Source: Bacteroidota bacterium
GTDB taxonomy: Bacteria > Bacteroidota > Bacteroidia > Chitinophagales > UBA10324
Assembly: GCA_014190575.1 (NCBI GenBank)
Contig: BJGQ01000009.1
Location: 27,501-82,358 of the forward strand
Direction of reading: 5' to 3'
DNA: 54,858 bases
Shown here in pieces: positions 19,985 through 46,116 of this stretch (positions within the stretch are counted from its first letter, which is position 1; the number at the start of each line of letters is the position of its first letter). The translations under genes were made by a program, and so were the position numbers. Below the pieces are notes generated by a model that had not been told where the DNA came from, did not search any database, and saw nothing but the letters and a program-made list of their open reading frames with translations.

Positions 19985-20023
19985 AATTGATTCCCGGATA
20001 TCTTTTAGTATTTAAATTAGTTG

Positions 20024-20053
20024 TTTGTAGTTAAAACAAAACTTCTATCTTGT
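20024..20053 (+). promoter_or_regulatory. candidate promoter of the 1264-residue surface protein gene
   Basis: TTTG at 20024-20027 and TATCTTGT at 20046-20053, 18 bases apart, approximate -33/-7. Its position rules out an in-frame TTG at 20021 as the translation start and supports the ATG at 20078. Confidence 0.45.
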
Positions 20054-20077
20054 TCGCACAAACCAAAATTAAAACCC

Positions 20078-23000
20078 ATGAGAAGGATTAGTTTTTTGCT
20101 TACTGTTTTTTTGCTCATTGCAAATAGTTCAATTTATGCGGCCAATAAAATAACTGTCGCTTCAGGTACTTGGAACACTCCTGCAGTATGGGGAGGTTCG
20201 GTTCCGGTCGCTGGCGACAACATCACCATCAGTGTTGGTCACACTGTTACCCTAAATGTAACTACACCAAGTATAGCAATTGCTATTATAAACGGAACTT
20301 TAAGTTTCGATGCATCAGGAACAGGTCGCACTTTTATTATTACCGGAACGCTATCAATAAATGGAGGTGGTATTTTTAATTGTGTTAGCCCAGGTATAGC
20401 CACAACTCACGCTCTAAATTTTAATGGCACCTCCTTTATTAACAACGGAACAATTAACATGTTTAATGCAACCAATGTATGCAATGTGGTTTTTGGTGGA
20501 GCTGTTGCTCAAACAATTAGTGGAAACGGCTCAACTGTTTTTAATAAACTAAAATTGAATAATACTGGTGGAAAATTTTCCATCACCTACGGCGGAGGAG
20601 CATTTTCAAGTACAATTTCTAATACCACAAAAGTACTGACCGGATTTACAGTGAATGATTCATTAATTATTTCAAGAGGATTAATGATTATGAACGGACA
20701 AAACAACAGTTCACTCGTTCATACTGTTGGCCATTTGCGCATGGGCTCAACAACCTCAGCAATGTCTTCGTCTATTGATATTTTAAGTGGTTCTGTAACC
20801 ATAGATGTAAATACTGCTCTTATTATGAACGATGCTGCAAATGCCGGAGAAACTTTAAATGTGAATGGAGTTTTTCAATCGCCTAACATGACACAGTCAA
20901 ATTCAGCAATCGCTTTTGCCATGCTCGGACCCAATTCTGATGGTGGCGCAAACAATAAAACCATTTGCAATTTTAATGGCGATGTAAATATTCCTGACTT
21001 GTTGGGCATTGTTGGAAACACAAGATTATATACCGGTACCGACCCGAAAAGACCTCAATTAAATTTCTCAGGAAATGTTTACATACAATATTTAAAGAGT
21101 TATACCATTGATATTCCATTGACATCACAAGATATTTTTATCAAATCATTTTACTTCGGATTGTTTGATTCATTGGGAACACATCCGATAATTACTTTAA
21201 ATGGAGGCACAGAAGCTTTACCTAAAATATGGAATGTTCCCTTTACTGTTTTTGATGCGCCAATTCAATATTCAAATCCTCCAATAGGAAATCCGATTGT
21301 TGCCTTGATTTCTGAATCAGCATCTGATTGGGTGGTGAATGGAGTTCGTGAAATTGTAAGCGGAAGTTCAATGGCCGTTCATTCAAATGACACATTGAAA
21401 GTGAATGGTAAAATTATTGTTGACAGCAATGGAGAAATTGCAGGTTCAGAAACTGAAACGGATTCATCAGGTTTTATTTCCACTGCTGGTCCGTTGCTTT
21501 TATTCGGAACCAACGGAACAATAAAAGTTTTGAATTCAACACTTGGTAATGGATTACTTACTGAAGCTGCAAGTAATGTTGCAATAAAAAACCGAACTGC
21601 TGATTTTAACTGGGACTTAAACGCGATAAATAATTCTGGTAAAATTCAATATTCATCTGCAACTTCGCAAACAATTACAGCTCGGACTTACAATAAATTA
21701 TTGATAACCGATGTCGGAACAAAAACACTTTTAGGTACCATTACTGTAAATGATTCCCTCAGTTCTTCATCGTTATTATCACTCAGCACTTTCAGTATTA
21801 ATGTAAAGAAAAATGTGGTATTGAATGCAAGTGTTAGTGGTTCAGGCGGAATTATTTTTAATGGTTCTACAATACAGAATATCGGAGGCACATCTGGTAA
21901 CTGGGGAAATTTTACAGTGAACAACAGCAATGGATTAAATTGTGTGACAGATATCAACACAGATGGTCTTGTCACATTTACCAATGGGAAACTGAATACA
22001 TCTTCAGGAGCAAAATTAAATTTAACTGCAAGTGGAACCCATGCAGGTGCAAGTACAGGCAGTTATGTAAATGGTCCGATGACAAAGACAACATCCTCAA
22101 CAAATGCATTTGTTTTCCCGACCGGTGATGTAACCACTTTCAGAAATTTTGAATTGATTCCATCATCTGCAAATTCAACAACCTGGACCGGACAATACTT
22201 AGCATCCGCTTTTTCAAATACAAGTTCTGTTACCGTCCCGTTAATTTCTGTCAGCAATCTCGAACATGTTTTATTAACAAGAAGTGGCGTTTCACCTGCT
22301 GATGCAAAAGTGAAATTGTATTGGGCTACGGCAAGTGGATTTGCTGATACCATTGGATTAAGAGTTGCAAGCTGGAGTGGTTCATCATGGACAAATGCAG
22401 GAAAATTTTCTTCAACAGGAAATACAACTTCAGGTACAATCACTTCTAATGCATCTTCAACTTTTAATGCATTTACATTTGGAAGAGTTGCTGGGAATAC
22501 TATAACTACAGGAACACTTACTTCAATTTCATTTTGCAAAGGTGCAGCTGTATCAGTTCCGTTTACTTCAATCGGAACTTACAATGCAGGAAATATTTAT
22601 ACAGTTCAATTGAGTGATGCAAGCGGAAATTTTGCTTCACCACTTTTAATAGGCACATTAACTTCAAATGCAAACAGTGGAAGTATAACAGCTGCAATTC
22701 CATTTACAGTTGTTGATGGTTTTGCATACAGATTGAGAATTGTCAGCTCAAACCCAAGTGTAATTGGTTCTGACAACGGAACAAATTTTTCAATTACTTC
22801 ACCGCCTGTTGTTTCAATGGTTTCTACAGCAGGAAATTCAATATGCGCTTCAGGCATTACAACTCTGAATGTTCTTGTAAGCGGAGGTAATGCTCCTTAC
22901 ACTTATTTGTGGAACACAGGAGCAATAACTTCTTCTATTCAGGTTGGTGTCGGAACCTATTCGGCAACTGTTACTGACGCCAATGGATGTGCAGGAAATT

Positions 23001-23872
23001 ATTCTATCACTATTTTAAGTTCTATTTGTGATGTTCCAACAAGTATTTCTTCATCAAACATCACCGGAACAAAAGCAACTCTAACATGGACAGGAAATAG
23101 TTGCGCTGTAAAATATCGAATTCAGATTCGTGTAATGGGTACTACAGCATGGAACACAACTGCAGTAAATGCACCAACAACAACAAAGAGTTATATTACT
23201 TTGCTGCCACTTACAACTTATGAATATCGTGTTCGATCTGATTGTAATAGTACTGGAACAATTGCCTCTGCATATTCTTCTATTCAAACATTTACAACAT
23301 TGTGTAATTGTGAAAAACCAGCAACTATTAACTTCACAAACATTGCACAAACCACAACAACTGTTAACTGGACCGGAAATACATGTGCTTTAAAATATCG
23401 TTTACAATATCGCAAACAAGGTGTAACTGCCTGGACAACTGCAACTATAACAGCACCAACAGCAACAAAAAACTTAACAGTCTTACTGAGCAACTCAACT
23501 TACGAAATAAGAATGCGCAGTGATTGCAACGCAACAGGTTCAGTAAATTCAGGTTGGACAACTACTCAAACATTTACAACTGCATTACGCTTGGAAGATG
23601 TTGCTGTGAATGCTTCAGGTTTTGAATTAAGTATTTTTCCAAATCCTACTGAAGGAAAATTTGTGTTAAATATAAATTCAGTTGTTGATGGAAATGGTGA
23701 AATTAGAATCAGCAATATCTTAGGTCAGGAAATTATGAACGCTACAATTGAATTGAAAAACAGAGCAAACAATTTCAATTATTCTTTAGAAAATGTTTCT
23801 TCAGGAATTTATTTCGTATCATTGAAAACTGATGATGGTGTGATTACAAAAAAACTGAACATCAATAAATAA
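20078..23872 (+). CDS. giant T9SS surface protein with G8-like, SprB-repeat and fibronectin III modules
   Basis: A 1264-residue protein. The ATG at 20078 starts a normal signal peptide (RRISFLLTVFLLIANSSIYA); an upstream TTG in frame would add 19 non-signal residues and overlaps a promoter. The N-terminal region (VASGTWNTPAVWGGSVPVAG) resembles the G8/beta-helix entry seen in Bacteroidota adhesins. A long beta-strand-rich, threonine/serine/asparagine-rich stretch follows. Near residue 930 is one SprB-type repeat (APYTYLWNTG, then YSATVTDANGC). Two tandem fibronectin III-like modules with paired cysteines follow (WTGNSCAVKYR and WTGNTCALKYR), then a type A T9SS domain (IFPNPTEGKF, SSGIYFVSLK). 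Likely a surface adhesin or matrix component; no enzyme motif seen. Confidence 0.87.
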   Translation: MRRISFLLTVFLLIANSSIYAANKITVASGTWNTPAVWGGSVPVAGDNITISVGHTVTLNVTTPSIAIAIINGTLSFDASGTGRTFIITGTLSINGGGIFNCVSPGIATTHALNFNGTSFINNGTINMFNATNVCNVVFGGAVAQTISGNGSTVFNKLKLNNTGGKFSITYGGGAFSSTISNTTKVLTGFTVNDSLIISRGLMIMNGQNNSSLVHTVGHLRMGSTTSAMSSSIDILSGSVTIDVNTALIMNDAANAGETLNVNGVFQSPNMTQSNSAIAFAMLGPNSDGGANNKTICNFNGDVNIPDLLGIVGNTRLYTGTDPKRPQLNFSGNVYIQYLKSYTIDIPLTSQDIFIKSFYFGLFDSLGTHPIITLNGGTEALPKIWNVPFTVFDAPIQYSNPPIGNPIVALISESASDWVVNGVREIVSGSSMAVHSNDTLKVNGKIIVDSNGEIAGSETETDSSGFISTAGPLLLFGTNGTIKVLNSTLGNGLLTEAASNVAIKNRTADFNWDLNAINNSGKIQYSSATSQTITARTYNKLLITDVGTKTLLGTITVNDSLSSSSLLSLSTFSINVKKNVVLNASVSGSGGIIFNGSTIQNIGGTSGNWGNFTVNNSNGLNCVTDINTDGLVTFTNGKLNTSSGAKLNLTASGTHAGASTGSYVNGPMTKTTSSTNAFVFPTGDVTTFRNFELIPSSANSTTWTGQYLASAFSNTSSVTVPLISVSNLEHVLLTRSGVSPADAKVKLYWATASGFADTIGLRVASWSGSSWTNAGKFSSTGNTTSGTITSNASSTFNAFTFGRVAGNTITTGTLTSISFCKGAAVSVPFTSIGTYNAGNIYTVQLSDASGNFASPLLIGTLTSNANSGSITAAIPFTVVDGFAYRLRIVSSNPSVIGSDNGTNFSITSPPVVSMVSTAGNSICASGITTLNVLVSGGNAPYTYLWNTGAITSSIQVGVGTYSATVTDANGCAGNYSITILSSICDVPTSISSSNITGTKATLTWTGNSCAVKYRIQIRVMGTTAWNTTAVNAPTTTKSYITLLPLTTYEYRVRSDCNSTGTIASAYSSIQTFTTLCNCEKPATINFTNIAQTTTTVNWTGNTCALKYRLQYRKQGVTAWTTATITAPTATKNLTVLLSNSTYEIRMRSDCNATGSVNSGWTTTQTFTTALRLEDVAVNASGFELSIFPNPTEGKFVLNINSVVDGNGEIRISNILGQEIMNATIELKNRANNFNYSLENVSSGIYFVSLKTDDGVITKKLNINK

Positions 23873-26786: not shown

Positions 26787-29465
26787 TTGAAGAACAAAAA
26801 AACAAGCGCATCATTATTACTGGCAGTCATTCTATTTTTAGTTGCCTGTGCCGGCAACAAAAAGAGCAGTCAATTATCATTGCTCGGAGGATTTTATCAC
26901 AACACTACTGCGCGTTACAATGGATTTTATTACGGTAAGCTGAAGTTGAATCGTGTGAAAGAAAGCATGACATCTTCATTGCAGGATGATTATACAAAAC
27001 TGCTTCCGTTGTTTACCGACGAAGAAGCGGGCAGCGGTTCAAAGGGAGATTTAGATTCAGTGATTATTAAATTATCAGTAGTAACGCAATTGCATCCGAA
27101 GAGCAAGTGGGTTGATGATTGCTACCTGCTAATTGGCGAATCATATTTCTACAAACAGGATTATGAAGATGCGCTTTCAACTTTTCAATACATAGTTGCC
27201 ACTTTTAAAGAAACAGGAAAGAAGAAAAAGAAATCGGGTGGAAAAAAAATAAAAGAAGGAGATGTTACTATTCCTTGGTTGAAGAGTGGAGAAGGTTTCA
27301 CGCTGCAACACCGACCGGTGCGCAATGAAGCATTGCTGTGGTTATTGAAATCATACATCGCTATGAAAAAATATGATGAAGCGCAAAGCATCATAAAAGT
27401 TTTAGCAGCCGATCAGACTTTTCCATTTGACCTTCGTGAAGAGTTTACATTAATCAGTACACAGAATTTTTTAAAACAGGATAGATATGCCGATGCTATT
27501 GTACCGTTGAAGCAGGCGATAGTACTCACAAAAAAGAAAAAAGATAAAACGCGCTATACTTATATTCTCTCTCAACTTTATCAATTAACCAATAATTCTG
27601 ATAAAGCAATTGAGTCATTCAAGAAAGTGATTGCAATGAAACCCGAATACAACATGGAGTTTTATGCGAACATCAACATAGCAAAATCGTTTTCAGGAAA
27701 CGGAAAAACTTCAGCAACTGAAGTGCTTTCTCTTTTAGAGAAACTGGCCCGTGATGATAAATATGAAGAATTCCGCGACCAGATTTATTACACCATGGCT
27801 GAAGTTTATCTGAAAGAAAATAATAAACCACTTGCCATTAAATCATTGAATAAATCGATTGAAACAAGTACCTCTAATACCAACCAAAAAGCATTATCAT
27901 TTTTAAAATTAGCAGAGTTGGATTTTGCTGATAAATATTATGTGACCGCTGGCGGTTATTACGACAGCACTGCTGTATTCATGACCAAATCATTTGAGAA
28001 ATATGATGAAGTTAATCTGAAGAAAAAAATTCTTGACAATTTGGTTTTTCAAATCAACATTGTTTCACGAGAAGACAGTTTGCAAAAATTAGCATCGATG
28101 CCGGAAAAGGAATTGAATAAAGAACTGGATGCAATCATTGACAAATTTGAAAAACAACAGAAGCTGGATTCATTGCAGAGCAACACAATTGTATCATCAG
28201 ATGCAAAAAAGGTAGAGGATAATAATGACACAAAAAACGGTTGGTATTTTTATAACTCCGCTACAAAAGGATCAGGCTTTAACGATTTTAAAAAGAAGTG
28301 GGGCAACCGAGTAAATGAAGACAACTGGCGCCGCAATAACAAAACAAGTTCCGAAGAAAATTCAGCGATTCAGAATAGCAAATCAGATGCAAATTCTCCA
28401 ACATCTAACGGTAGCAAACTGACTCGTGATGATTTAAAAATAGGTATTCCTTTTAAACCCGAAGAGAAAAAAACATCGGATTTTAAAATTCAAAATGCTT
28501 TGTTTGCTATTGGAGGGATTTATAAAGAAGACTTAAAAGATTTTGACTACGCTATAAAATCGTATGAAGATTTATTAAAACGATACCAGCAATTTGAATT
28601 AGAACCTGCAACATTTTATGCTTTGTATTTATTGTATAACAATAAAAGCATGGCCATGCAATCTGAAAATTACAAGCAGCAGGTTCTTAAAAACTATCCC
28701 AATTCAGAGTTTGCAAAACTATTAAGCAACCCAAATTACTTGGAAGAAAAAAAAGCAGGAGCCAATCAAGTTGAAGCATATTATCAATCTGCCTATGCAT
28801 TGTTCCAGCAACAGAAATATTCAGATGTAATTGTTAAAACAAAAGCGTCCGATTCACTTTTTACAAAAAATCCATTTGCGGCGAAATTTGATTTGCTTGA
28901 ATCATTTGCAATAGCACAAATACAACCAGTTGATACTTTTAAAGCTGCATTGAAGAGTATTATAAAAAAATATGTTGTTGGTGAAGAAGTAGAAAAAGCA
29001 AAACAATTACTCGGCAATATTGATAAACCTAAAGGCAGTGAAAAAGGAGACAAGAATGTTAAACTTCCAAAAGACTCCACTTTTCAAAGTAGCGCTTCTT
29101 CCTATTCAATTCATAAAACCAATGCGCACTATTTCGTCATTCTTTTTACTGATGATGACCCTGCAATTAAAGGTACGGTAGATTCATTGCAAAATTTTAT
29201 CACTCAGAATTATTCGTTGAACACATATAAAGTTTCTACTATGATGCTCGATAAGAAACAACAAATGATTTTAGTAAAACAAATGAAAAGTATGGATGAT
29301 GCCATGACATTTTATGCCGATGCATCAAGCCAGACTTTTTACGATGAGATTGAAAGTACAGATTTTTATTTCTTTGTTATTGATGATAAAAATTTCGCAA
29401 CTTTTTTCAAAAATAAAAACCTGACTGATTATATGCAGTTCTTTGATGCGAATTACAATCCATAA
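26787..29465 (+). CDS. sprE: T9SS/gliding lipoprotein PorW/SprE with TPR repeats
   Basis: An 892-residue lipoprotein: signal peptide with lipobox (LVAC, Cys21), then FYHNTTARYNGFYYGK, a motif shared by SprE of gliding flavobacteria and PorW of Porphyromonas. Tetratricopeptide repeats follow (for example SDKAIESFKKVIAMKPEYN and DFDYAIKSYEDLLKRYQQF). A polar linker lies near 470-560, with a further C-terminal domain. It is required in those organisms for T9SS function, probably connecting the periplasmic rotor/ring parts. The start is TTG; an AGG stretch lies just upstream and no ATG precedes the hydrophobic core. The seven T9SS cargos in this window are its expected clients. Confidence 0.82.
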   Translation: MKNKKTSASLLLAVILFLVACAGNKKSSQLSLLGGFYHNTTARYNGFYYGKLKLNRVKESMTSSLQDDYTKLLPLFTDEEAGSGSKGDLDSVIIKLSVVTQLHPKSKWVDDCYLLIGESYFYKQDYEDALSTFQYIVATFKETGKKKKKSGGKKIKEGDVTIPWLKSGEGFTLQHRPVRNEALLWLLKSYIAMKKYDEAQSIIKVLAADQTFPFDLREEFTLISTQNFLKQDRYADAIVPLKQAIVLTKKKKDKTRYTYILSQLYQLTNNSDKAIESFKKVIAMKPEYNMEFYANINIAKSFSGNGKTSATEVLSLLEKLARDDKYEEFRDQIYYTMAEVYLKENNKPLAIKSLNKSIETSTSNTNQKALSFLKLAELDFADKYYVTAGGYYDSTAVFMTKSFEKYDEVNLKKKILDNLVFQINIVSREDSLQKLASMPEKELNKELDAIIDKFEKQQKLDSLQSNTIVSSDAKKVEDNNDTKNGWYFYNSATKGSGFNDFKKKWGNRVNEDNWRRNNKTSSEENSAIQNSKSDANSPTSNGSKLTRDDLKIGIPFKPEEKKTSDFKIQNALFAIGGIYKEDLKDFDYAIKSYEDLLKRYQQFELEPATFYALYLLYNNKSMAMQSENYKQQVLKNYPNSEFAKLLSNPNYLEEKKAGANQVEAYYQSAYALFQQQKYSDVIVKTKASDSLFTKNPFAAKFDLLESFAIAQIQPVDTFKAALKSIIKKYVVGEEVEKAKQLLGNIDKPKGSEKGDKNVKLPKDSTFQSSASSYSIHKTNAHYFVILFTDDDPAIKGTVDSLQNFITQNYSLNTYKVSTMMLDKKQQMILVKQMKSMDDAMTFYADASSQTFYDEIESTDFYFFVIDDKNFATFFKNKNLTDYMQFFDANYNP

Positions 29466-31808: not shown

Positions 31809-32423
31809 TTGAAAAATTTGTCAATAGCAAGCATTGCTTTTCTATTTTTAATTGCAGTTTCAATTCAGCTTTTTTATTCTTCCTGCAAAAAAGATATTTG
31901 TGAAAATTTAAAATGCTGGAATGGAGGCACTTGCTTAAATGGTGTTTGCGAATGCGCAACCGGATGGTCTGGAGAAACTTGTTTAACTCCTGTTGCAAAT
32001 ACAGATCCTTGTTCAAATATAATCTGTCAAAATGGGGGTACTTGCGTAGATGGTACTTGCAATTGTGCATCAGGATACGAAGGAGTGAATTGTGAAATTG
32101 AAACTCGCGCCAAATTTATTCGAACATGGAATGTTAGTCAGAACAGTTCATTATTTGGAACTTCAGGCTATTCGTTAACAGTATTGAACGATACGAGTAT
32201 TAATTCCGTACTCATTGAAAATTTCTGGAATGAATTCACTGTAACAAATGCTACAGTGAATGGAAACAACATTACTATTCCATTTCAATTTCAAACTGTT
32301 AGCTCAACAATTTATTACATTGGTGGAACCGGAACATTTAATAATAACCAGATATTGTGGAATTATTCAATTACAAATACCAACACTAGTGTAATTGACA
32401 ATTGCACCGCAACATGGCAATAA
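31809..32423 (+). CDS. lipoprotein with two EGF-like modules
   Basis: A 204-residue lipoprotein. Signal peptide with lipobox-like LFYSSC (Cys26), then two cysteine-rich EGF-like modules: NGGTCLNGVCECATGWSG and NGGTCVDGTCNCASGYEG, each with the six-cysteine pattern. A C-terminal beta-rich domain (about 100-204) has no recognised motif. EGF-like modules behind a lipobox recur in Bacteroidota cell-envelope proteins of unknown role. The start is TTG at 31809; no ATG lies before the hydrophobic segment. Confidence 0.75.
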   Translation: MKNLSIASIAFLFLIAVSIQLFYSSCKKDICENLKCWNGGTCLNGVCECATGWSGETCLTPVANTDPCSNIICQNGGTCVDGTCNCASGYEGVNCEIETRAKFIRTWNVSQNSSLFGTSGYSLTVLNDTSINSVLIENFWNEFTVTNATVNGNNITIPFQFQTVSSTIYYIGGTGTFNNNQILWNYSITNTNTSVIDNCTATWQ

Positions 32424-32966: not shown

Positions 32967-33007
32967 ATTTTTCCCGCAAAGAAACTGAAATTCTTTGCGG
33001 GAAAAAT
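32967..33007 (-). terminator. terminator after the copper monooxygenase gene, abutting the DUF4199 start
   Basis: A perfect 17-bp stem (32967-32983 with 32991-33007, core TCCCGCAAAGAA), 7-base loop, T-run on the minus strand formed by the stem end. It ends 4 bases before the DUF4199 ATG. Confidence 0.88.
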
Positions 33008-33027: not shown

Positions 33028-34605
33028 CTACTTACTGATAATAAGTTTGCTGATGCTTGTTGTTTTTCCGGTCAACTGCACAAAATAATTTCCGTCAGGC
33101 AACGAACCGATTGAATATTGAAAGCGATAATTTCCATTGGTCATGGTGCGCGAAGGAAAAAGTTGTTTCACAGTTTTACCGATCACATCTTTTATTTCCA
33201 TTGAATAAGTTCCGGTTTCAGGAATGGTAAAATCAGTAATCAGTTTATCATTCGCCGGATTCGGATAAAGCAACAAACCTGAATTTTCATTTTGCGCTGT
33301 TACATCATCCACGCCAAGCGGCACAAGCGGCGAATTATCAATCACAATGTTTTCGTCGCCTGGGAAGTAAATGGTAAATTCAAAAAAGGTGAGCATCATT
33401 TCATCTAGTGTACTTTCTCCAGAGGTTACTATTTGTGGGGGATTATTGGGGTTGTTGTAATTGTTTGTGGTGTTGTCGTATGTGGCAACAGAATACAACA
33501 CAGTACTTGCCGGAATTTTTATAACCTTCCTGAACTGATACAATCCCTGCCAGTGAAAATCCCAATTGTTTATGGAGATAAAAGGAATGGTATCGTTAGT
33601 AGGAGTAACACCGAATGCATTAATTGTTTTTCCAATCAAGTGTTGGTGGGGAGCAACGCCTAGCATAGATAAATCGAAGTTCGGCAATTGATAATGTTCA
33701 TGACAGGTTTTAACTTGATTGGCCGGCAAAACCAATGGCCACTCGGTCAACACTGTAGGGTCAACATGATTGAGAGGAGCATTAAAATAAACAGGACGAA
33801 TGAATGCACCTGCTTGATAAAAGAAATTAATTTTTGAACTGTCGGATAGTCCATTGCTACCGGGCGCGTAGTGATATTGCAAAACAATATCTGCATTGGC
33901 CGGAATGTTAATTCCCATTCCATCAGGCAAAACAAAAGGGGCAGCTCCCGGAACCCATGCGCCAATTAATTGTGCAGCATTATTTCCTACTCCACCAAAA
34001 CCAGCATAACCCGGATCCGGATCCTGCGTGTCTAATTGCTGACAAACTCCGGTGGTATCCCAATAAATTAAAACATGGTGAACGATTGCTGTATTGCCTG
34101 GAATAAATTCTATCGCTTTCATCATTTGATCAGCAGAGTATCCTGACGGAACAACAAAGCAACGGAAATCATCAGTAGCAACTGTAACAGTATAGTTTGG
34201 CAACTGTAACACATCATCCGGAGTTCCGATCTGACTTCCGGTTGGATAGATAGGAAGCGATGGCAAATTTGCAGTGTTGCCTTCGGGCATTCCACCATTC
34301 ACCCAGTCATTAATCTTTTGAATATCCTGCGGACTTAAAAATCGTTCGTGCGCCAAACGACTGAAATTAGGATCCGGTGGCCATGGTGGCATGCGATGAT
34401 TATTTACAGCATCCTGAATGGAAGCACCTGCATTCGTTGCATCGGCATAAGTGACCAATGGAAACGAAGCAATGTTTCCGGTGCGGTGACAACCTGTGCA
34501 ATTCTGATAAAAGATAGTTGCCATGTCATCACAAAAAGTCGGCGTTTGTGCAAATGAAATTTCAGCAGTAAAGCTGATGGCTAAAAGGATTAAGATTTTC
34601 TTCAT
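33028..34605 (-). CDS. cytochrome c / ascorbate-dependent-type copper monooxygenase fusion with T9SS domain
   Basis: A 525-residue exported protein with three parts. Residues about 21-110: cytochrome c domain with C36-x2-C39-H40 haem site and M72 (in RMPPWPP) as likely axial ligand. Residues about 125-420: fold and motifs of the PHM/dopamine beta-monooxygenase type. Candidate CuH ligands are H176-H177 (IVHHVLIYWD) and H245 (LQYHYAPG); candidate CuM ligands are H320-x-H322 (APHQHLIG) and M403 or M404 (LDEMMLTF). Residues about 440-525: type A T9SS domain (LYPNPANDKL). It would hydroxylate an unknown substrate at the cell surface, with the haem domain feeding electrons. The ligand mapping is mine, by pattern. 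Confidence 0.82.
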   Translation of the reverse strand: MKKILILLAISFTAEISFAQTPTFCDDMATIFYQNCTGCHRTGNIASFPLVTYADATNAGASIQDAVNNHRMPPWPPDPNFSRLAHERFLSPQDIQKINDWVNGGMPEGNTANLPSLPIYPTGSQIGTPDDVLQLPNYTVTVATDDFRCFVVPSGYSADQMMKAIEFIPGNTAIVHHVLIYWDTTGVCQQLDTQDPDPGYAGFGGVGNNAAQLIGAWVPGAAPFVLPDGMGINIPANADIVLQYHYAPGSNGLSDSSKINFFYQAGAFIRPVYFNAPLNHVDPTVLTEWPLVLPANQVKTCHEHYQLPNFDLSMLGVAPHQHLIGKTINAFGVTPTNDTIPFISINNWDFHWQGLYQFRKVIKIPASTVLYSVATYDNTTNNYNNPNNPPQIVTSGESTLDEMMLTFFEFTIYFPGDENIVIDNSPLVPLGVDDVTAQNENSGLLLYPNPANDKLITDFTIPETGTYSMEIKDVIGKTVKQLFPSRTMTNGNYRFQYSIGSLPDGNYFVQLTGKTTSISKLIISK

Positions 34606-34632
34606 GAAAAAATTTTATGTGGCTTTGATTTT

Positions 34633-34640
34633 CAAATGTA
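34633..34640 (-). promoter_or_regulatory. -7 box of the copper monooxygenase gene
   Basis: On the minus strand TACATTTG matches TAnnTTTG exactly, about 28 bases before the ATG at 34605. A TTTT about 20 bases upstream may stand in for the -33 element. Confidence 0.5.
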
Positions 34641-34737
34641 GTAAAGGTTTAAGCAACTATAAAATCGTGAAATAAATATTCAACGATTCAAGTGAATGGT
34701 ATTTACTTCGCCCACAATAAGTCAAAAAAAAATCGCT

Positions 34738-37020: not shown

Positions 37021-37182
37021 TGGGCGAAAAATAAAAAAATCAAATAAAAACCCAATGAGCAGGTAAGAATTTTTTAATTCATTTTTTAATCCCCGATTCA
37101 ACTTCATTAATATTGAGGTATCAAAAAAAATATTCAAATGAAATCGAAGATTCACGAATTCCATCATAAAATAAATTTTACA

Positions 37183-39084
37183 ATGAGTAAAACACTTTAC
37201 ACTTCAATCTTGCTCACCATAATATTGTTGGCAGGAGTCAATCAACAATCGAAAGCTTGCTACGCCAACTACACCCACTCCAATGCGTGTGCTGGTGATA
37301 CAGTTTGGTTTTTTGCCCTTGACCTTTATGCGGTTCATAGTTGGGATTTTGGTGATAGCATCAGCGGAAATCCGAATACTGCATATGACGATACGGTATT
37401 TCATATATACACAACTCCCGGAACATACTATGTAACACACTTCGATAACATAGGCGCGGAGTGGGCATTCGAAACTCAAGTGATAACCATCAGCTCAACT
37501 TGTTTTCTCGCAGATTTTAATTCGCAATGTGGGGGCTCATTATATTTCAACTTCACCAATCAATCTATTGGAAATAATTTAACTTACCAATGGACTTTTG
37601 GTGAACCATCATCAGGTACAAATGATTCGAGCACGCTTTTAAATCCTAATCATACTTACTCAACTGCTGGTTCTTATGATGTTACATTAATTATTTCTGA
37701 TGGAACGCAAACCGATACCACTTTACAAATAATTAATGTATCAGCCAATTGCATGTCTTTTTATATCAGTTACATGTTAAATCCATGTGCGAATGATACT
37801 ACCCATTTTTATTATAATTTTTCAGGTGTAACAAGTGTGCTTTGGAATTTCGGTGATCCTACATCAGGCGCAGCAAATACTTCAATCGATTTTATTCCCT
37901 ATCATATTTTTTCTGTACCCGGAGTTTATGTTGGTTCAGTAATCTATACTGATGGAATCACAACAGATACTCTTCCGGTAATTACAAATATTGTTGATTG
38001 TAATGTTTTTCCAGGCGATGCAAACCGCGATGGGCAAGTGACAGGTGAAGATATTTTAGCGCTTGCGCTTTACTACGGCGATACAGGAATTGCGCGTTCC
38101 GGTGCTTCATTGAATTTTACTCCGCAAGCATGTACTGATTGGGGATTAACGAACAGCACCTTTACTGGAAACATGTACCTGAATGATATGGTGAATCTGA
38201 AAAATGCAGATTGCAATGGTGATGGAGTTATTAATGATTTAGATGTGCAAGCCATAACACAAAACTTCGGAATGGTTTCGCATCCACACAACATTGAATC
38301 GCAAATGCAGATGGTGCCGAATCAAGCACCGATGTTAAAAGTGACTTTGTTAGATTCAACATTAAACCCTTGCGGAGATCAAGGAACAGCTATTTTATCC
38401 TTAGGTGAAGTTGGAGATACTGTTAAATCTATATATGGAATTTGTGTTCGAATTAAATACAATGATTTCCCTATTCTATCTAATTCCTTTACAGTTGATT
38501 TCAACAACTCATGGTTAGATACAATCGGATTACCAAATTTAATTTACAAATATTATAATGATGAGGTCAATCGGGTTTTAACAATAGTGGCTACAAGAAA
38601 AAATCATATAGCTATTGATGGAACTGGAGAAATAGCAATCATTCATTTTTATCTTGGATGTGCAGAAAAACTTGAACGATGGTTTGCCCCAGTTTCTCTT
38701 TCAATTTTATCCGATGCAAAAGTTCTTAATAACAGTGTCTATTATCCGAATGGAAATACGGGGTTTGTACAACATTTTATCAATGTAAATACTCAAGGAG
38801 ATACCACTTCAATTGATGTTGGTGATGGCATCAACGAAATTTCAAACAACAACAATCTCACTCTCTATCCATCACCTGCAACCGACAAATTATTTATTTC
38901 TTCAAAAGAAAATATTCGCAATGCACAATTAAAAGTTTATGATGCAGCAGGAAAATTATTATTGGAAAATAAAATGACCGGAACGAACACATCAATTGAT
39001 GTAACCAATATTGCAGATGGAATTTATTTGCTTGAAGTAAATGATGGAGTAAATGTTTACAGAAACAGGTTTTTAAAACAATAA
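37183..39084 (+). CDS. T9SS surface protein with PKD domains and dockerin-like calcium repeats
   Basis: A 633-residue protein. The ATG at 37183 gives a proper signal peptide (LYTSILLTIILLAGVNQQSKA); an earlier in-frame ATG at 37138 does not. Three PKD-like domains follow (SWDFGDS, YQWTFGEP and LWNFGDP motifs). Two dockerin-type calcium loops come next (GDANRDGQVTGEDILAL and DCNGDGVINDLDVQ), about 50 residues apart. The protein ends in a T9SS domain (LYPSPATDKL, then IADGIYLLEV) where the usual PNP is PSP. Likely a surface adhesion or scaffolding protein; no enzyme motif. It heads a run of three T9SS genes. Confidence 0.86.
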   Translation: MSKTLYTSILLTIILLAGVNQQSKACYANYTHSNACAGDTVWFFALDLYAVHSWDFGDSISGNPNTAYDDTVFHIYTTPGTYYVTHFDNIGAEWAFETQVITISSTCFLADFNSQCGGSLYFNFTNQSIGNNLTYQWTFGEPSSGTNDSSTLLNPNHTYSTAGSYDVTLIISDGTQTDTTLQIINVSANCMSFYISYMLNPCANDTTHFYYNFSGVTSVLWNFGDPTSGAANTSIDFIPYHIFSVPGVYVGSVIYTDGITTDTLPVITNIVDCNVFPGDANRDGQVTGEDILALALYYGDTGIARSGASLNFTPQACTDWGLTNSTFTGNMYLNDMVNLKNADCNGDGVINDLDVQAITQNFGMVSHPHNIESQMQMVPNQAPMLKVTLLDSTLNPCGDQGTAILSLGEVGDTVKSIYGICVRIKYNDFPILSNSFTVDFNNSWLDTIGLPNLIYKYYNDEVNRVLTIVATRKNHIAIDGTGEIAIIHFYLGCAEKLERWFAPVSLSILSDAKVLNNSVYYPNGNTGFVQHFINVNTQGDTTSIDVGDGINEISNNNNLTLYPSPATDKLFISSKENIRNAQLKVYDAAGKLLLENKMTGTNTSIDVTNIADGIYLLEVNDGVNVYRNRFLKQ

Positions 39085-39473: not shown

Positions 39474-40604
39474 ATGTTTAATTTCATTACTGTAGATGCT
39501 TTGCAAGTTGTTTGGACTTCGCAAAACCCAACATGTGGAATGAACAATGGAACAATTGCTTTGTCGGTAATTAGTGGTTTTCCTCCATATATTTTTAATT
39601 GGAGCAATGGATCAAATACACAAAATCAAACCGGTTTAAGTGCCGGAAGTTATGATTGTTTTGTCACCGATGGAATGGGATGTATGTTTCCGATTAATGT
39701 GGTGCTTTCTAATGCAACTTCTTTTTCATTGCTCGAATCGCACACTGATGCGGCATGTGCAAATGCAAACGGTGCAATTGATTTATCGCCGATGGGTGGC
39801 ACTGCGCCATTCACCTTTCAATGGAACACAGGTGCAACTACTGAAGACCTCAACAACATTGTTGCAGGTATTTATAGTGTAACAGTTACAGATGCAAACT
39901 TGTGTGCAATTTCAGAAAGCATTTCGATTAACAATACCAACGGACCGGTAATTTATCCGTTCATTAACAATGAAATCTGCGGCGCCGGAAACGGAAGTAT
40001 TTCGATTTATGCAGCAAACGGAACTGCTCCTTATACTTATTTGTGGAGCAATGGCGGAACTGATTCAACCATCAGTTCACTCAGTTGGGGCAATTATACC
40101 GTTACAGTTACCGATCAGCTTTTGTGTCAGGGTTTTGCAAACATTGCGGTGTACGATTCCAATCTCATTGCAGTTTCTCCAACTGTGCAGCCAATCAACT
40201 GCGGCACACATGGAAATATTTCAGTGAATGCAACCGGTGGTGTGTTGCCTTATACTTACTTGTGGAACACAGGTGAAACAACGGCTACACTGCAAAATGT
40301 TTCGCTCGGAAATTACACTGTTACAGTGAGTGATGCCGGCACTTGTGTTTTAGTTGTTCCGATTAATGCGCAATTTTATTTCTATACTTATATCACATCA
40401 GTGATTCCGAATTGTTCTTCAAATGGTTCTTTAACAGCCGGAGTATTTGGTGGCACACCACCATTTACTTACCTGTGGAGTAACGGCGATACGAATGCAA
40501 CTGCAGCCAATCTTCAACCCGGTTCATATAGTGTAACAGTTACTGATTCTGCTGGATGCAGCACCACCGGTATTCAGTTTTACCAACCACCTGCAACAAT
40601 ATAA
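39474..40604 (+). pseudogene. SprB-repeat fragment of the broken T9SS gene
   Basis: This frame (376 residues from the first internal ATG) lacks any signal peptide. It consists of five SprB-type repeats of about 70 residues, each with a PYTYLWSNG-like strand and a YSVTVTDANLC-like strand. The TAA at 40602-40604 falls where the downstream domain should begin. An independent start here is unlikely; the frame is open upstream to the TGA at 39288 and encodes the rest of a PKD domain. Confidence 0.75.
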
Positions 40605-42081: not shown

Positions 42082-45000
42082 ATGAAAAAAATACTCTTTA
42101 CCATTTTCTTTTTATCTGCTCTTATATCGCAAGCACAAGTTCCCTACTCAGCCATTCCATTAAAAGGAGATGAACCTGAATGGGTGCAATTACTTTTCCA
42201 ACCCAATCCGGATCCTGGAATTGTTTCAGAAAAATTTAAAGACTATTTCAAAACGCATCCATTCGAAAAAAATTATTACACACAATTTTATAAGCATTGG
42301 ATGATGTTGCATTCAAGAGATAACAATGGTTCGTTGTTCGGTTTGCCATTGGATGATGCAAAATTTAATGAGACCAATTATTTAGCTCGTTGTAAAAACA
42401 GTTCGCTTGAAAAATCAGCCAACTGGCAGTGCGTTGGTCCGTTTGATTTTGATAAAGAAGCAGCCGGAAAAAGTTATGCTGCCGGAGCAGCTCATGTTTA
42501 CACCACCGAGCAATCCATTTCGAACACCGATATTTTATATGCAGGTACTGCAAATGCAGGAGTTTGGAAAAGTATTGATAAAGGAAACACCTGGGTAAAT
42601 CTTACAAAAGATATGATGCTTGGAACTGTGCTTTCATTGGAGATTGATAAAAACAATCCCGACATTGTATATTTTGGTGGTGCAGGAAAAGTTTATAAAA
42701 CCATAGATGGTGGTAATTCATGGAACATTACTGGTGATGCAGCATTTAATTCTGCATCAAAAACTATCAGAGACATAGTGCAATCTACTGTGAATGCCTA
42801 CGAACTTTGGATGGCTTCGGATCAGGGATTTTATCATACTACAGATGGTGGCGTTAATTGGATAATGCAATATTCAGGTGTGTGGAAGGAAATTGAAATT
42901 CATCCCACCAATGCGCTAATCATGTATGCAATAAAACAACCTGGAGTAAAAACTGAATTCTATAAATCATACGATGGTGGTCAAACATTCATAAATATTA
43001 TTAATGGATATCCATCTGCAGTGTCACCGGATGAACAAAAACGAACTGAAATTGCAGTATCTCCTGCTGCGCCAAATATTGTTTATGCTTTTGCAACAGG
43101 AGTTTCAGACGGAGGTTCAGGTTTGTATGGAATTTATGTTAGTCACGATGCAGGAGAAAGTTGGTCATTTCAATGTTGCGGTGTTGGTCCTGGTGGCTTG
43201 CCTGATACAAGCACAAATAAAAATTTATGCGGTTGGGATGACCATGGTGGTGATGATGGCGGACAATATTATTACGATTTAGCATTGGAAGTTTCTCCGT
43301 TCGATTCAAATGAAGTGCATGTGGGGGCAGTAAATCATTGGGTAAGTTATGATGGTGGTACGAATTGGTTTTGCCCGTCAAAGTGGAGTCATTCTGATAA
43401 AGTAAATTATGTACATGCCGATATTCACGACATACACTTTTACGGGAATGATTGGTGGATCAGTTGCGATGGCGGAATTTTTTATTCGCAATCCCAAGGC
43501 GATACTTTCAATCGCAAACAATTCGGAATTGCAGGAACCGATTTCTGGGGATTCGGCATGGGTGAATGGGAAGGTGAAGAAGTTATGGTTGGCGGTACTT
43601 ATCACAACGGAACTCTGTTGCGCGATTTTAATACTTATACAAATGGCTGGCTCAGCACAATGGGTGGAGATAATGTTTTAGGTGGTGTGAATTACGGCGA
43701 CTCACGAATTATTTTTTCCGATTACGGCCGGCATAAAATTCCAGGTGATCGCACAATTGATTTATTGAATCTTGGCACTGCTATGATTCCGAATAATTCC
43801 TACTATGTAGGTGAAGCAAGTGAATTTGAATTTCATCCTAATTTATTTAATACAATTTATATTGGCAAAGATTCAGGCATCTGGAAATCTGATGATCAGG
43901 GTGCAACTTATTCGTTGCTGCACAATTTCGGGAGTGGATTAATCACTTACATTGAAGTTGCTCCAACCAATCCATCCGTAATTTATGCTTGTTACTACCT
44001 GAGTTATTATGGTACAAAAAAACTATTCAGGTCAACTGATGCAGGTCAATCTTGGATTGATATAACTCCGCCCGCTTCGTTGTTTAATAATGCCTCTGCA
44101 GGAATTCCATTTGACATTGCTGTAAGCAGTACCAATGAAAATGAATTATGGCTGGTGCGTATTCCACAAAGTTCACAACTAAGTAATATCAACGGATACA
44201 AAGTTTTTAAAACCATTGATGGTGGTAGCAACTGGATAAACATTACCACAGCAATGCTCGATGGCGAATACATTACCTGCATTGAACACCAAAGCGGAAC
44301 TGATGGCGGAGTTTACATCGGAACAAGAAGAGCAGTTTACTATCGTAATAACACAATGGCTGATTGGGAATTATACAACAGTGGTTTACCCGTGAGTATT
44401 GGAAGCACGCAGGTTTTAATCAATTACAAATCAGGAAAAGTGGTTAATGCCACTGACCGCAGTGTTTGGGAGTCTCCTGTTTACGAACCATCAACTCCGA
44501 AGGCAACAATTTCAGTTGATAAAAATGTAATTCATTGCACACGCGACACCATTTATTTTCATGATCATTCAAATTTGTTAGCGCCAAGTACAACTAACTG
44601 GAGTTTCCCGGGTGGAAATCCTTCTTCATCCAATCTTCGTAATCCAAAAGTTGTTTATTCTAATCCTGGTACCTATTCAGTTGAGTTAACAGTCGGCAAT
44701 GGTTTCGGTATTTCTACCCAAACACTGAATAATTTTATTACAGTTTACAATGAATGTTTTGCTGATACTATTCCAGGAAATTGTTTATCTCTCAACGGTA
44801 CAAGTGGTGATGCAATCGGTCCGAATCTGAATCTGAATTCAAATCATGTCTCAATCAGTGCATGGATAAAACCAAACGGCACGCAAGGAGATTGGAGTGG
44901 AATTGTTTTTTGCCGCGGTGGAAATACCACTTCAGGAATCAGTATGAAAGATAACAATGAAATTAGGATGCACTGGAATGGAACTGAATGGGGTTGGTCT

Positions 45001-46116
45001 TCTGGTTTGTTTGCACCTGTCGATGAATGGTCTCATGTGGCATTGGTAGTTACACCTGATTCTGCCACACTTTATGTAAATGGAATTCCATCGAGTAATA
45101 TTCATTCTTTTCCAACAGAAGAATTTGATTGCCCGATCAGTATTGGCTTGGATAATTGTTGCGACAGATATTTCAAAGGCTTGATTGATGAGATGTGCGT
45201 ATACAATCGTTCCCTTTCAAAAAATGAAATTCGTGACTTAATGCACCTCACAAAAAACCCATTGAGCGATTCATCGTTGGTTCGATATTATCAGTTTGAT
45301 GAAAGCAGCGGACCTATACTCGATAAAGTTGGAGTAGGTCATGCAAACCTGAATGGCGGAGCATCGCGTGTAACATCATCAGGACCCTTTGGTGGTGGAA
45401 TCAGTTTCCGGAAAAATATTTTAACAGCAGGCAATCATGTTTTCACTAATACAGGCTTCTCTTGTTCATGGTCAAATGGAACAACACTTCCGCACGGCGA
45501 TGTTGTTATTTCAAGAATTAACTTACTTCCAGATCAAACACCTGCGCAAAATTGGAATGCAAGAAGTTATTGGATCATGGATAACTATGGAACGAATGAA
45601 TTTTATGATTTACCAAATCAACTATCATTCGACAAAATCGGAACAGTGAGTGCAACCGATCAGCAAAATCCTAATCGTTTTAAAATTTGTCTGCGTGGTC
45701 ACAATGCTGATGGAAACACATGGGGAACACCAAACGACAGTGCGAATCTATGCACTTCCGGCACTGATGGTTCAGCACAATTCGGGAATGTAAGTTCGTT
45801 TGTTTCTTCGTCGCAGTTTGATATTATCAATTCATCAATTGTGGTAATCGGAACACAGGAAATTCTTTCTGAGAATTATGAAATGAATGCATCCGTTTAT
45901 CCTTCTCCGATTTCAAACACAGATAAACTTTTTGTAAAAACAATTTGCATTGGCGAGTGCCGTATCGAATTATTTTCTTCCATCGGACAAAAAATAACCG
46001 AACAGAAATTTTCAAAAGAAACTTCGCTTTCCTTAAAAGATTTACCCGCCGGAATTTATCATTACACTTTTCATTCTTCCGATTACGAACAGAATGGTGA
46101 GGTGGTGATACAGTAA
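42082..46116 (+). CDS. giant T9SS protein with sortilin/BNR-type propeller, PKD and LamG domains
   Basis: A 1344-residue protein. Signal peptide about 1-19 (ending SQAQ). Residues about 110-810 carry many BNR/sortilin-type repeats (IDKGNTWVNLTKD, IDGGNSWNITG, TDGGVNWIMQY, STDAGQSWIDI), the blade pattern of a VPS10-like ten-bladed propeller. A PKD domain follows near 835-890 (NWSFPGGNPSSS). A concanavalin/LamG domain lies near 910-1060 (VSISAWIKPNGTQGDWSGIV, then LIDEMCVYNRSLS). It ends in a T9SS domain with the PSP variant (VYPSPISNTDKL, LPAGIYHYTF). Probably a surface glycan- or protein-binding adhesin; no sialidase active site recognised. Confidence 0.87.
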   Translation: MKKILFTIFFLSALISQAQVPYSAIPLKGDEPEWVQLLFQPNPDPGIVSEKFKDYFKTHPFEKNYYTQFYKHWMMLHSRDNNGSLFGLPLDDAKFNETNYLARCKNSSLEKSANWQCVGPFDFDKEAAGKSYAAGAAHVYTTEQSISNTDILYAGTANAGVWKSIDKGNTWVNLTKDMMLGTVLSLEIDKNNPDIVYFGGAGKVYKTIDGGNSWNITGDAAFNSASKTIRDIVQSTVNAYELWMASDQGFYHTTDGGVNWIMQYSGVWKEIEIHPTNALIMYAIKQPGVKTEFYKSYDGGQTFINIINGYPSAVSPDEQKRTEIAVSPAAPNIVYAFATGVSDGGSGLYGIYVSHDAGESWSFQCCGVGPGGLPDTSTNKNLCGWDDHGGDDGGQYYYDLALEVSPFDSNEVHVGAVNHWVSYDGGTNWFCPSKWSHSDKVNYVHADIHDIHFYGNDWWISCDGGIFYSQSQGDTFNRKQFGIAGTDFWGFGMGEWEGEEVMVGGTYHNGTLLRDFNTYTNGWLSTMGGDNVLGGVNYGDSRIIFSDYGRHKIPGDRTIDLLNLGTAMIPNNSYYVGEASEFEFHPNLFNTIYIGKDSGIWKSDDQGATYSLLHNFGSGLITYIEVAPTNPSVIYACYYLSYYGTKKLFRSTDAGQSWIDITPPASLFNNASAGIPFDIAVSSTNENELWLVRIPQSSQLSNINGYKVFKTIDGGSNWINITTAMLDGEYITCIEHQSGTDGGVYIGTRRAVYYRNNTMADWELYNSGLPVSIGSTQVLINYKSGKVVNATDRSVWESPVYEPSTPKATISVDKNVIHCTRDTIYFHDHSNLLAPSTTNWSFPGGNPSSSNLRNPKVVYSNPGTYSVELTVGNGFGISTQTLNNFITVYNECFADTIPGNCLSLNGTSGDAIGPNLNLNSNHVSISAWIKPNGTQGDWSGIVFCRGGNTTSGISMKDNNEIRMHWNGTEWGWSSGLFAPVDEWSHVALVVTPDSATLYVNGIPSSNIHSFPTEEFDCPISIGLDNCCDRYFKGLIDEMCVYNRSLSKNEIRDLMHLTKNPLSDSSLVRYYQFDESSGPILDKVGVGHANLNGGASRVTSSGPFGGGISFRKNILTAGNHVFTNTGFSCSWSNGTTLPHGDVVISRINLLPDQTPAQNWNARSYWIMDNYGTNEFYDLPNQLSFDKIGTVSATDQQNPNRFKICLRGHNADGNTWGTPNDSANLCTSGTDGSAQFGNVSSFVSSSQFDIINSSIVVIGTQEILSENYEMNASVYPSPISNTDKLFVKTICIGECRIELFSSIGQKITEQKFSKETSLSLKDLPAGIYHYTFHSSDYEQNGEVVIQ

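Follow-up and report, generated by a model that had tools for sequence, protein, structure and literature searches.

The gene considered here occupies positions 33028..34605 on the minus strand (stop codon included) of the window, i.e., the whole 54,858-nucleotide stretch of Bacteroidota DNA that was analysed. Its reading frame is intact, starts with ATG and encodes a protein of 525 aa (a cytochrome c - PHM/DBM-like copper protein with a T9SS tail) whose parts, all read from the minus strand, follow one another as a candidate signal peptide (residues about 1-19, 34549..34605; recognised by eye and matching a model helix at 2-18), a CxxCH haem domain of cytochrome c-like character (residues about 24-110, 34276..34536; delimited by a Pfam match, invariant residues and helices), the N-half or CuH domain of a PHM-like core (residues about 127-285, 33751..34227), its C-half or CuM domain (residues about 296-417, 33355..33720) and a T9SS type A C-terminal sorting domain (residues 446-523, 33037..33270). 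Both PHM halves are backed by fold matches, and the sequence models agree to different degrees: Pfam Cu2_monoox_C (residues 301-408) scores 23.8 bits over a cut-off of 23, while Cu2_monooxygen (residues 139-247; 1.6e-4, 22.3 bits) and Cytochrome_CBB3 (residues 27-77; 3.3e-4, 21.4 bits) stay under their cut-offs of 30 and 27, respectively. The T9SS sorting domain named in a preliminary description of this DNA was upheld by Pfam Por_Secre_tail (7.5e-11) and by the NCBIfam model for type A sorting domains (33.2 bits, cut-off 23). Compared with PDB sequences, the single protein matched DBH (dopamine beta-hydroxylase) best (1.7e-6), and a profile of 34 homologues retrieved DBH at 1.5e-12 and PHM (peptidylglycine alpha-hydroxylating monooxygenase) at 6.6e-7. 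In animals these two copper enzymes produce noradrenaline and amidated peptides, respectively.

A probable terminator (32967..33007, minus strand; an inverted repeat of 17 pairs with a T-rich tail) separates the gene from a DUF4199 gene; the region has six terminator-like sites, against 2.8 expected from shuffled sequence, and this one has the longest stem. On the other side, a hydrolase gene starts 90 bp away (34606-34695). The six closest loci (L043-L048), which apparently represent five congener genomes plus one of the same family (G010), all carry two copies of the gene followed by DUF4199, with an alpha/beta hydrolase gene ahead of the first copy in three of them (L043, L045, L047); likewise, all five congeners searched (G001-G005) have two adjacent copies (L079, L078, L080, L072, L096). 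The window retains the second copy only. The same genome has a second haem-PHM paralogue on a different contig (L002, with 39% identity in the 34-sequence alignment), and since the tree places it outside the first-copy clade, the first copy seems to have been lost in the window. Eight farther neighbours, scanned at L049, L050, L053 and L054, comprised valyl-type tRNA synthetases, arginase, DeoC aldolase, ketopantoate hydroxymethyltransferase, a C25 peptidase, a VWA/Ig-like T9SS protein and one protein without a family. No shared pathway emerged from these eight and the six closest loci, and no gene for a redox partner or a substrate was seen among the neighbours examined.

The fold of the copper core was approached through an AlphaFold2 model (mean pLDDT 81.1, pTM 0.67) built on an alignment of 21 sequences (A1, see below), in which ten-residue blocks between residues 131 and 420 have pLDDT values from 62 to 96. 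With this model as query, the top 31 Foldseek matches were all PHM or DBH (1.1e-14 to 1.5e-11), the next being the unrelated complement C5 (2e-6, TM 0.15). VIA-align superposed model residues 127-417 on PHM 55-328 (Z 22.2, rmsd 3.0 Å, 260 residues) and gave Z 21.4 and rmsd 3.8 over 300 residues for DBH. The PHM/DBM-like domain first proposed from the letters of the sequence thus matches solved PHM structures, and an absence of the fold, which would have spoken against the proposal, was not seen.

The homologue search of genomes returned 18 loci: L043-L056 matched over most of the length, L057, at the end of a contig, matched in part, and for L058-L060 the match was limited to residue 396 onward. 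Two partly overlapping alignments were derived, A1 (21 sequences, i.e., the window protein and 20 from L043-L056) and A2 (34 sequences), both chosen before the aberrant paralogue L063 was seen; neither includes L063 (which would break the invariance of C39) or L150. At E 0.01 or better, A2 members matched Cu2_monoox_C (33/34), Cu2_monooxygen and Por_Secre_tail (26/34 each), Cytochrome_CBB3 (10/34) and Haem_bd (7/34). Residues 25-425 of the window protein hold 12 His, 9 Met and 6 Cys, and of these 27 residues ten, and no more, are invariant, the identical set in both alignments. The ten coincide with the predicted metal ligands: C36, C39, H40 and M72 for the haem, H176, H177 and H245 for CuH, and H320, H322 and M403 for CuM. 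Q353 is likewise invariant and aligns with PHM Q272 (hand-counted on the profile alignment).

The candidate CuH ligands are encoded at 34075..34080 (H176-H177) and 33871..33873 (H245), and those of CuM at 33640..33648 (H320-x-H322) and 33397..33399 (M403), all on the minus strand. By hand count on the A2 profile alignment, H176/H177, H245 and H320/H322 fall on rat PHM H107/H108, H172 and H242/H244, the last pair being what we take to be the numbers of the PHM CuM histidines. The profile alignment ends before the CuM methionine (a narrower profile is also short of it), and M403 was therefore placed by structural register: the end points of the VIA alignment (model 417, PHM 328) are offset by 89, from which we infer that it corresponds to PHM M314. 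Published ligand assignments are His107, His108 and His172 for the CuH of PHM with M314 in the CuM site (PMC6123673), and His262, 263, 333, 412, 414 and Met487 for DBH (PMC4846438). The earlier claim of two complete copper sites therefore stands, with all six ligands present in 34/34 sequences (five aligned with PHM by profile, M403 by structural register), and a check for poorly conserved ligands found none. The residue positions given at that stage were right throughout, apart from the choice left between M403 and M404 for the CuM methionine: M403 is invariant and M404 is present in 25/34. Taken together, we regard the protein as almost certainly of the PHM/DBM fold and furnished with both kinds of metal site.

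The haem attachment motif C36-x-x-C39-H40 (34486..34500, minus strand), already recognised in the preliminary description, is invariant in all 34 aligned homologues. To it we add M72, which lies in an MPPW motif (34390..34392, minus strand), is equally invariant and is the probable distal, i.e., second, haem ligand, an element absent from that description; W101 of the same domain is also invariant in the alignments. The AlphaFold2 model places haem-domain helices at 24-35 and 92-103, with residues 37-49 and 72-79 around the haem at pLDDT < 50. Whole-model VIA rows mostly spanned 127-525 and scarcely covered the haem part. Folded alone and haem-free (pLDDT 74.3), the haem domain matched no cytochrome among solved structures (best Foldseek E 0.9; no VIA row with Z >= 2 among 148 chains). 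In both models, low-confidence in parts, residues 20-118 form helices and lack strands of 3 or more residues, and so depart from the N-terminal beta-sandwich DOMON of the DBH type. A chance occurrence of CxxCH is ruled out by its presence in 34/34 A2 sequences and by the haem motif in 130/133 frames of the wider set described below.

How often haem and copper domains are fused was assessed by searching for Cu2_monoox_C, irrespective of haem, in 149 near relatives and in 247 genomes sampled across Bacteroidota. Matches were found in 70 of the former (114 places, the window's own included) and 24 of the latter (26 places, two of which repeat places of the relatives), and the upstream frames were read for the resulting 138 places (114 plus 24 non-repeat ones). 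A haem motif was present in 130 of them (C-x2-CH in 116, C-x3-CH in 3 and C-x4-CH in 11); of the remaining eight, three are cut by the sequence end and five have no counted motif, namely L063 (CxxYH), L159 (C-x5-CH), L150 (motif lost) and, with frames that begin downstream of the place of the haem domain, L081 and L134. The fusion rate in Bacteroidota, the family frequency that the preliminary description had asked for, hence amounts to 130/133 frames containing the N-terminal region. A second count that started from the copper-ligand pattern yielded 139 frames (L166 (+) being an antisense artefact, and L074, L120 and L134 being cut before the domain) and a haem motif in 132/135, located 133-185 residues before the HH pair, the three exceptions being again L063, L150 and L159. 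Of 105 distinct frames in an initial subset (two duplicate rows dropped), 100 showed the six copper ligands by a loose pattern, the remaining five being fragments that miss part of the region. In the same vein, residues 1-430 used as query against L001-L060 gave 51 frames (own included; 49 distinct), all with CxxCH in the first 150 residues; L019, a distant member with C-x4-CH, lies outside these 51. As a family trait kept in 130 of 133 assessable frames, the haem fusion is unlikely to be an accident.

Within this family several variants were encountered. Spacings of C-x3-CH, C-x4-CH and once C-x5-CH accompany the same copper pattern in distant members (L019, L067, L083, L084, L087, L091, L098, L102, L106, L114, L123, L124, L159). 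The paralogue in L063 (frame at 2713, plus strand), 1177 residues long, reads CxxYH at the place of CxxCH, keeps the copper pattern and carries, by eye, Ig/PKD-like repeats; it may lack normal haem attachment. Together with L150, from which the motif is gone, this variant suggests that some paralogues may do without haem. By eye, the frame at 51 (minus strand) of L121 encodes a lipoprotein that joins a redoxin-type-looking domain, a cytochrome c and a PHM domain in one chain, perhaps forming a longer electron or copper relay, and the haem-PHM protein of L020 (571-2523, plus strand) ends in a dockerin-like repeat instead of a T9SS domain.

Outside Bacteroidota, a single record was matched among the plasmids searched, that of Nonomuraea gerenzanensis (Actinomycetota; L131, 2096-3424, plus strand; 2e-10, 24.4% identity over 64% of the query), at a place for which the PLSDB table lists no gene. 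The lipoprotein-like protein encoded there shares, by eye, the six-ligand pattern with the window protein; it differs in having no haem motif before the domain and no sorting domain, the chain stopping just past the Met motif. Since this homologue lacks the haem motif, haem is not common to all bacterial PHM-like members. No homologues were found in the viral contigs searched, and Cu2_monoox_C was absent from fourteen well-known control genomes.

The type A sorting domain occurs in a genome that encodes T9SS components: SprA (1840.6 bits) and, in the window itself, PorW/SprE (26787..29465, plus strand; a T9SS periplasmic lipoprotein, NF052312 575.6 bits, cut-off 250), which is part of the export machinery that the 525-aa protein would need. 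The genome also has two Cytochrom_C_asm proteins, one of them within an 815-residue frame. On these sequence features the protein is probably located at the cell surface. Among the 138 places, the tail after the EM motif is long enough for a sorting domain in 100, not in 36, and cut in 2. A check of a subset flagged 26 frames as short-tailed (L038 and L079 in error, as they are tailed), and a lipobox-like motif in 17 of the other 24 suggests lipid anchoring of short-tailed members. The window further contains four large surface-type proteins (20021-23872, 37138-39084, 39474-40604 and 42082-46116; G8/FN3, PKD, SprB-repeat, sortilin/laminin-G), three of which match a T9SS sorting domain (one of the three below the cut-off), as well as a protein with two EGF-like repeats (31809-32423, plus strand; EGF_2 7.2e-10) that is possibly, by eye, a lipoprotein.

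With PHM the window protein has in common the core fold (Z 22.2), the six copper ligands and the equivalent of Q272; it differs by the additional haem c domain and T9SS tail, by an identity of about 16%, and by invariant cysteines that are limited to the haem pair. It differs, too, in the residues that in PHM bind the peptide carboxylate, which we take to be R240, N316 and Y318. R240 is replaced by A318 (R is absent from column 318 in both alignments), and, in a register at 405 and 407 that derives from the placement of M403, N316 is replaced by L405 (N in 1/34) and Y318 faces residue 407, an F or Y in 28/34. Because these presumed peptide-binding residues are not kept, peptide amidation is disfavoured as unlikely, and the substrate is probably not a peptidylglycine.

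A parallel in layout is offered by DBH, the closest PDB sequence match, in which the ligand order is the same and an extra domain likewise sits N-terminal to the copper core. In cellobiose dehydrogenase and LPMO, a pair of separate proteins, a haem domain (b-type) feeds an extracellular copper monooxygenase; the principle would be the same, whereas the copper fold is unrelated to that of the window protein. The N-terminal DOMON of DBH, a beta sandwich, shares its fold with the haem domain of cellobiose dehydrogenase, and no binding pocket was found in this DOMON (PMC4846438). At the same N-terminal place the window protein has a predicted helical domain with CxxCH, so that the layouts run parallel, relatedness not being implied.

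We reason that the protein is most likely a surface, O2-using copper hydroxylase whose CuH would be reduced by its own cytochrome c, and that a haem-driven hydroxylase of the PHM/DBM superfamily is a reasonably likely description of it, as far as sequence and predicted structure permit. Judging from its motifs and from related enzymes, the protein would be exported by Sec, receive haem c covalently at C36/C39 in the periplasm, and then be exported by the T9SS and attached via its C-terminal domain. The H40/M72 haem could take electrons from the respiratory chain or from an external donor and pass them to CuH (H176, H177, H245) in ascorbate's stead; O2 at CuM (H320, H322, M403) would then hydroxylate an extracellular organic substrate, with CuH supplying the second electron. 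In PHM each copper accepts one reducing equivalent from ascorbate, the coppers are about 11 Å apart and O2 binds at CuM (PMC6123673). Considering that ascorbate is not guaranteed on a bacterial surface, the fused c-type haem is the simplest donor candidate, and the haem domain probably replaces ascorbate (vitamin C) as the electron source.

Among the other readings, the one that survives best, though we consider it unlikely, is a PHM-like monooxygenase served by a small external reductant, in which the haem would sense O2 or redox state, dock a partner or stabilise the fold. It can draw on L063 (CxxYH with the copper pattern kept), on L150 (no haem motif) and on the Nonomuraea relative (six-ligand pattern by eye, no haem motif), against which stand the retention of the haem motif in 130/133 frames and of M72 in 34/34 sequences. 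Quite improbable, in our estimate, is a peroxygenase using H2O2 instead of O2 and two electrons at CuM, with a haem that removes or senses peroxide: H2O2 can indeed make O2 and reductant unnecessary in PHM (PMC6123673), but such a shunt at CuM alone would make the CuH ligands dispensable, and they are invariant. The electron flow might also be reversed: as in a surface oxidase, the coppers would oxidise a metal or organic compound outside the cell and hand the electrons to the cytochrome for onward transfer. The probable surface location and the haem domain would allow it, yet the conserved 3His and 2His+Met sets form the pattern of O2-activating monooxygenases and a Pfam scan of 17 other window proteins showed no further cytochrome, which leaves this arrangement highly improbable. 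A metal-binding or storage protein without catalysis, suggested by the fact that activity of a bacterial member is not evident among the open-access matches listed, is hardly credible in the face of a complete two-site ligand set, a strictly conserved Q353 and frequent tandem copies.

Taken one by one, the PHM-type fold with its copper sites, the haem c domain and the T9SS tail are already known. Their stable combination is not described among the open-access (PMC) matches listed, and in the titles and abstract openings listed there for ascorbate-dependent or DBH-like monooxygenases a bacterial enzyme was nowhere the evident subject. Returning to the cytochrome-reduced hydroxylase, we tentatively propose, at somewhat less than even chances, that Bacteroidota possess a large class of ascorbate-free, cytochrome-wired surface two-copper hydroxylases that receive electrons singly at CuH from a fused haem c. 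Such a class may parallel the DBH layout, or look like an earlier form of it; the N-terminal DOMON of DBH is folded like a cytochrome but is not known to hold a haem. How two distant coppers share electrons is studied on PHM and DBM as model enzymes, and their ascorbate donor complicates the kinetics. The natural haem fusion would provide a donor that is coloured, built in and delivers one electron, so that the passage from haem to CuH and on to CuM could be followed directly. If true, the proposal would predict a bacterial surface chemistry in a phylum where Cu2_monoox_C proteins occur in 70/149 near relatives of the organism and in 24/247 genomes sampled at large.
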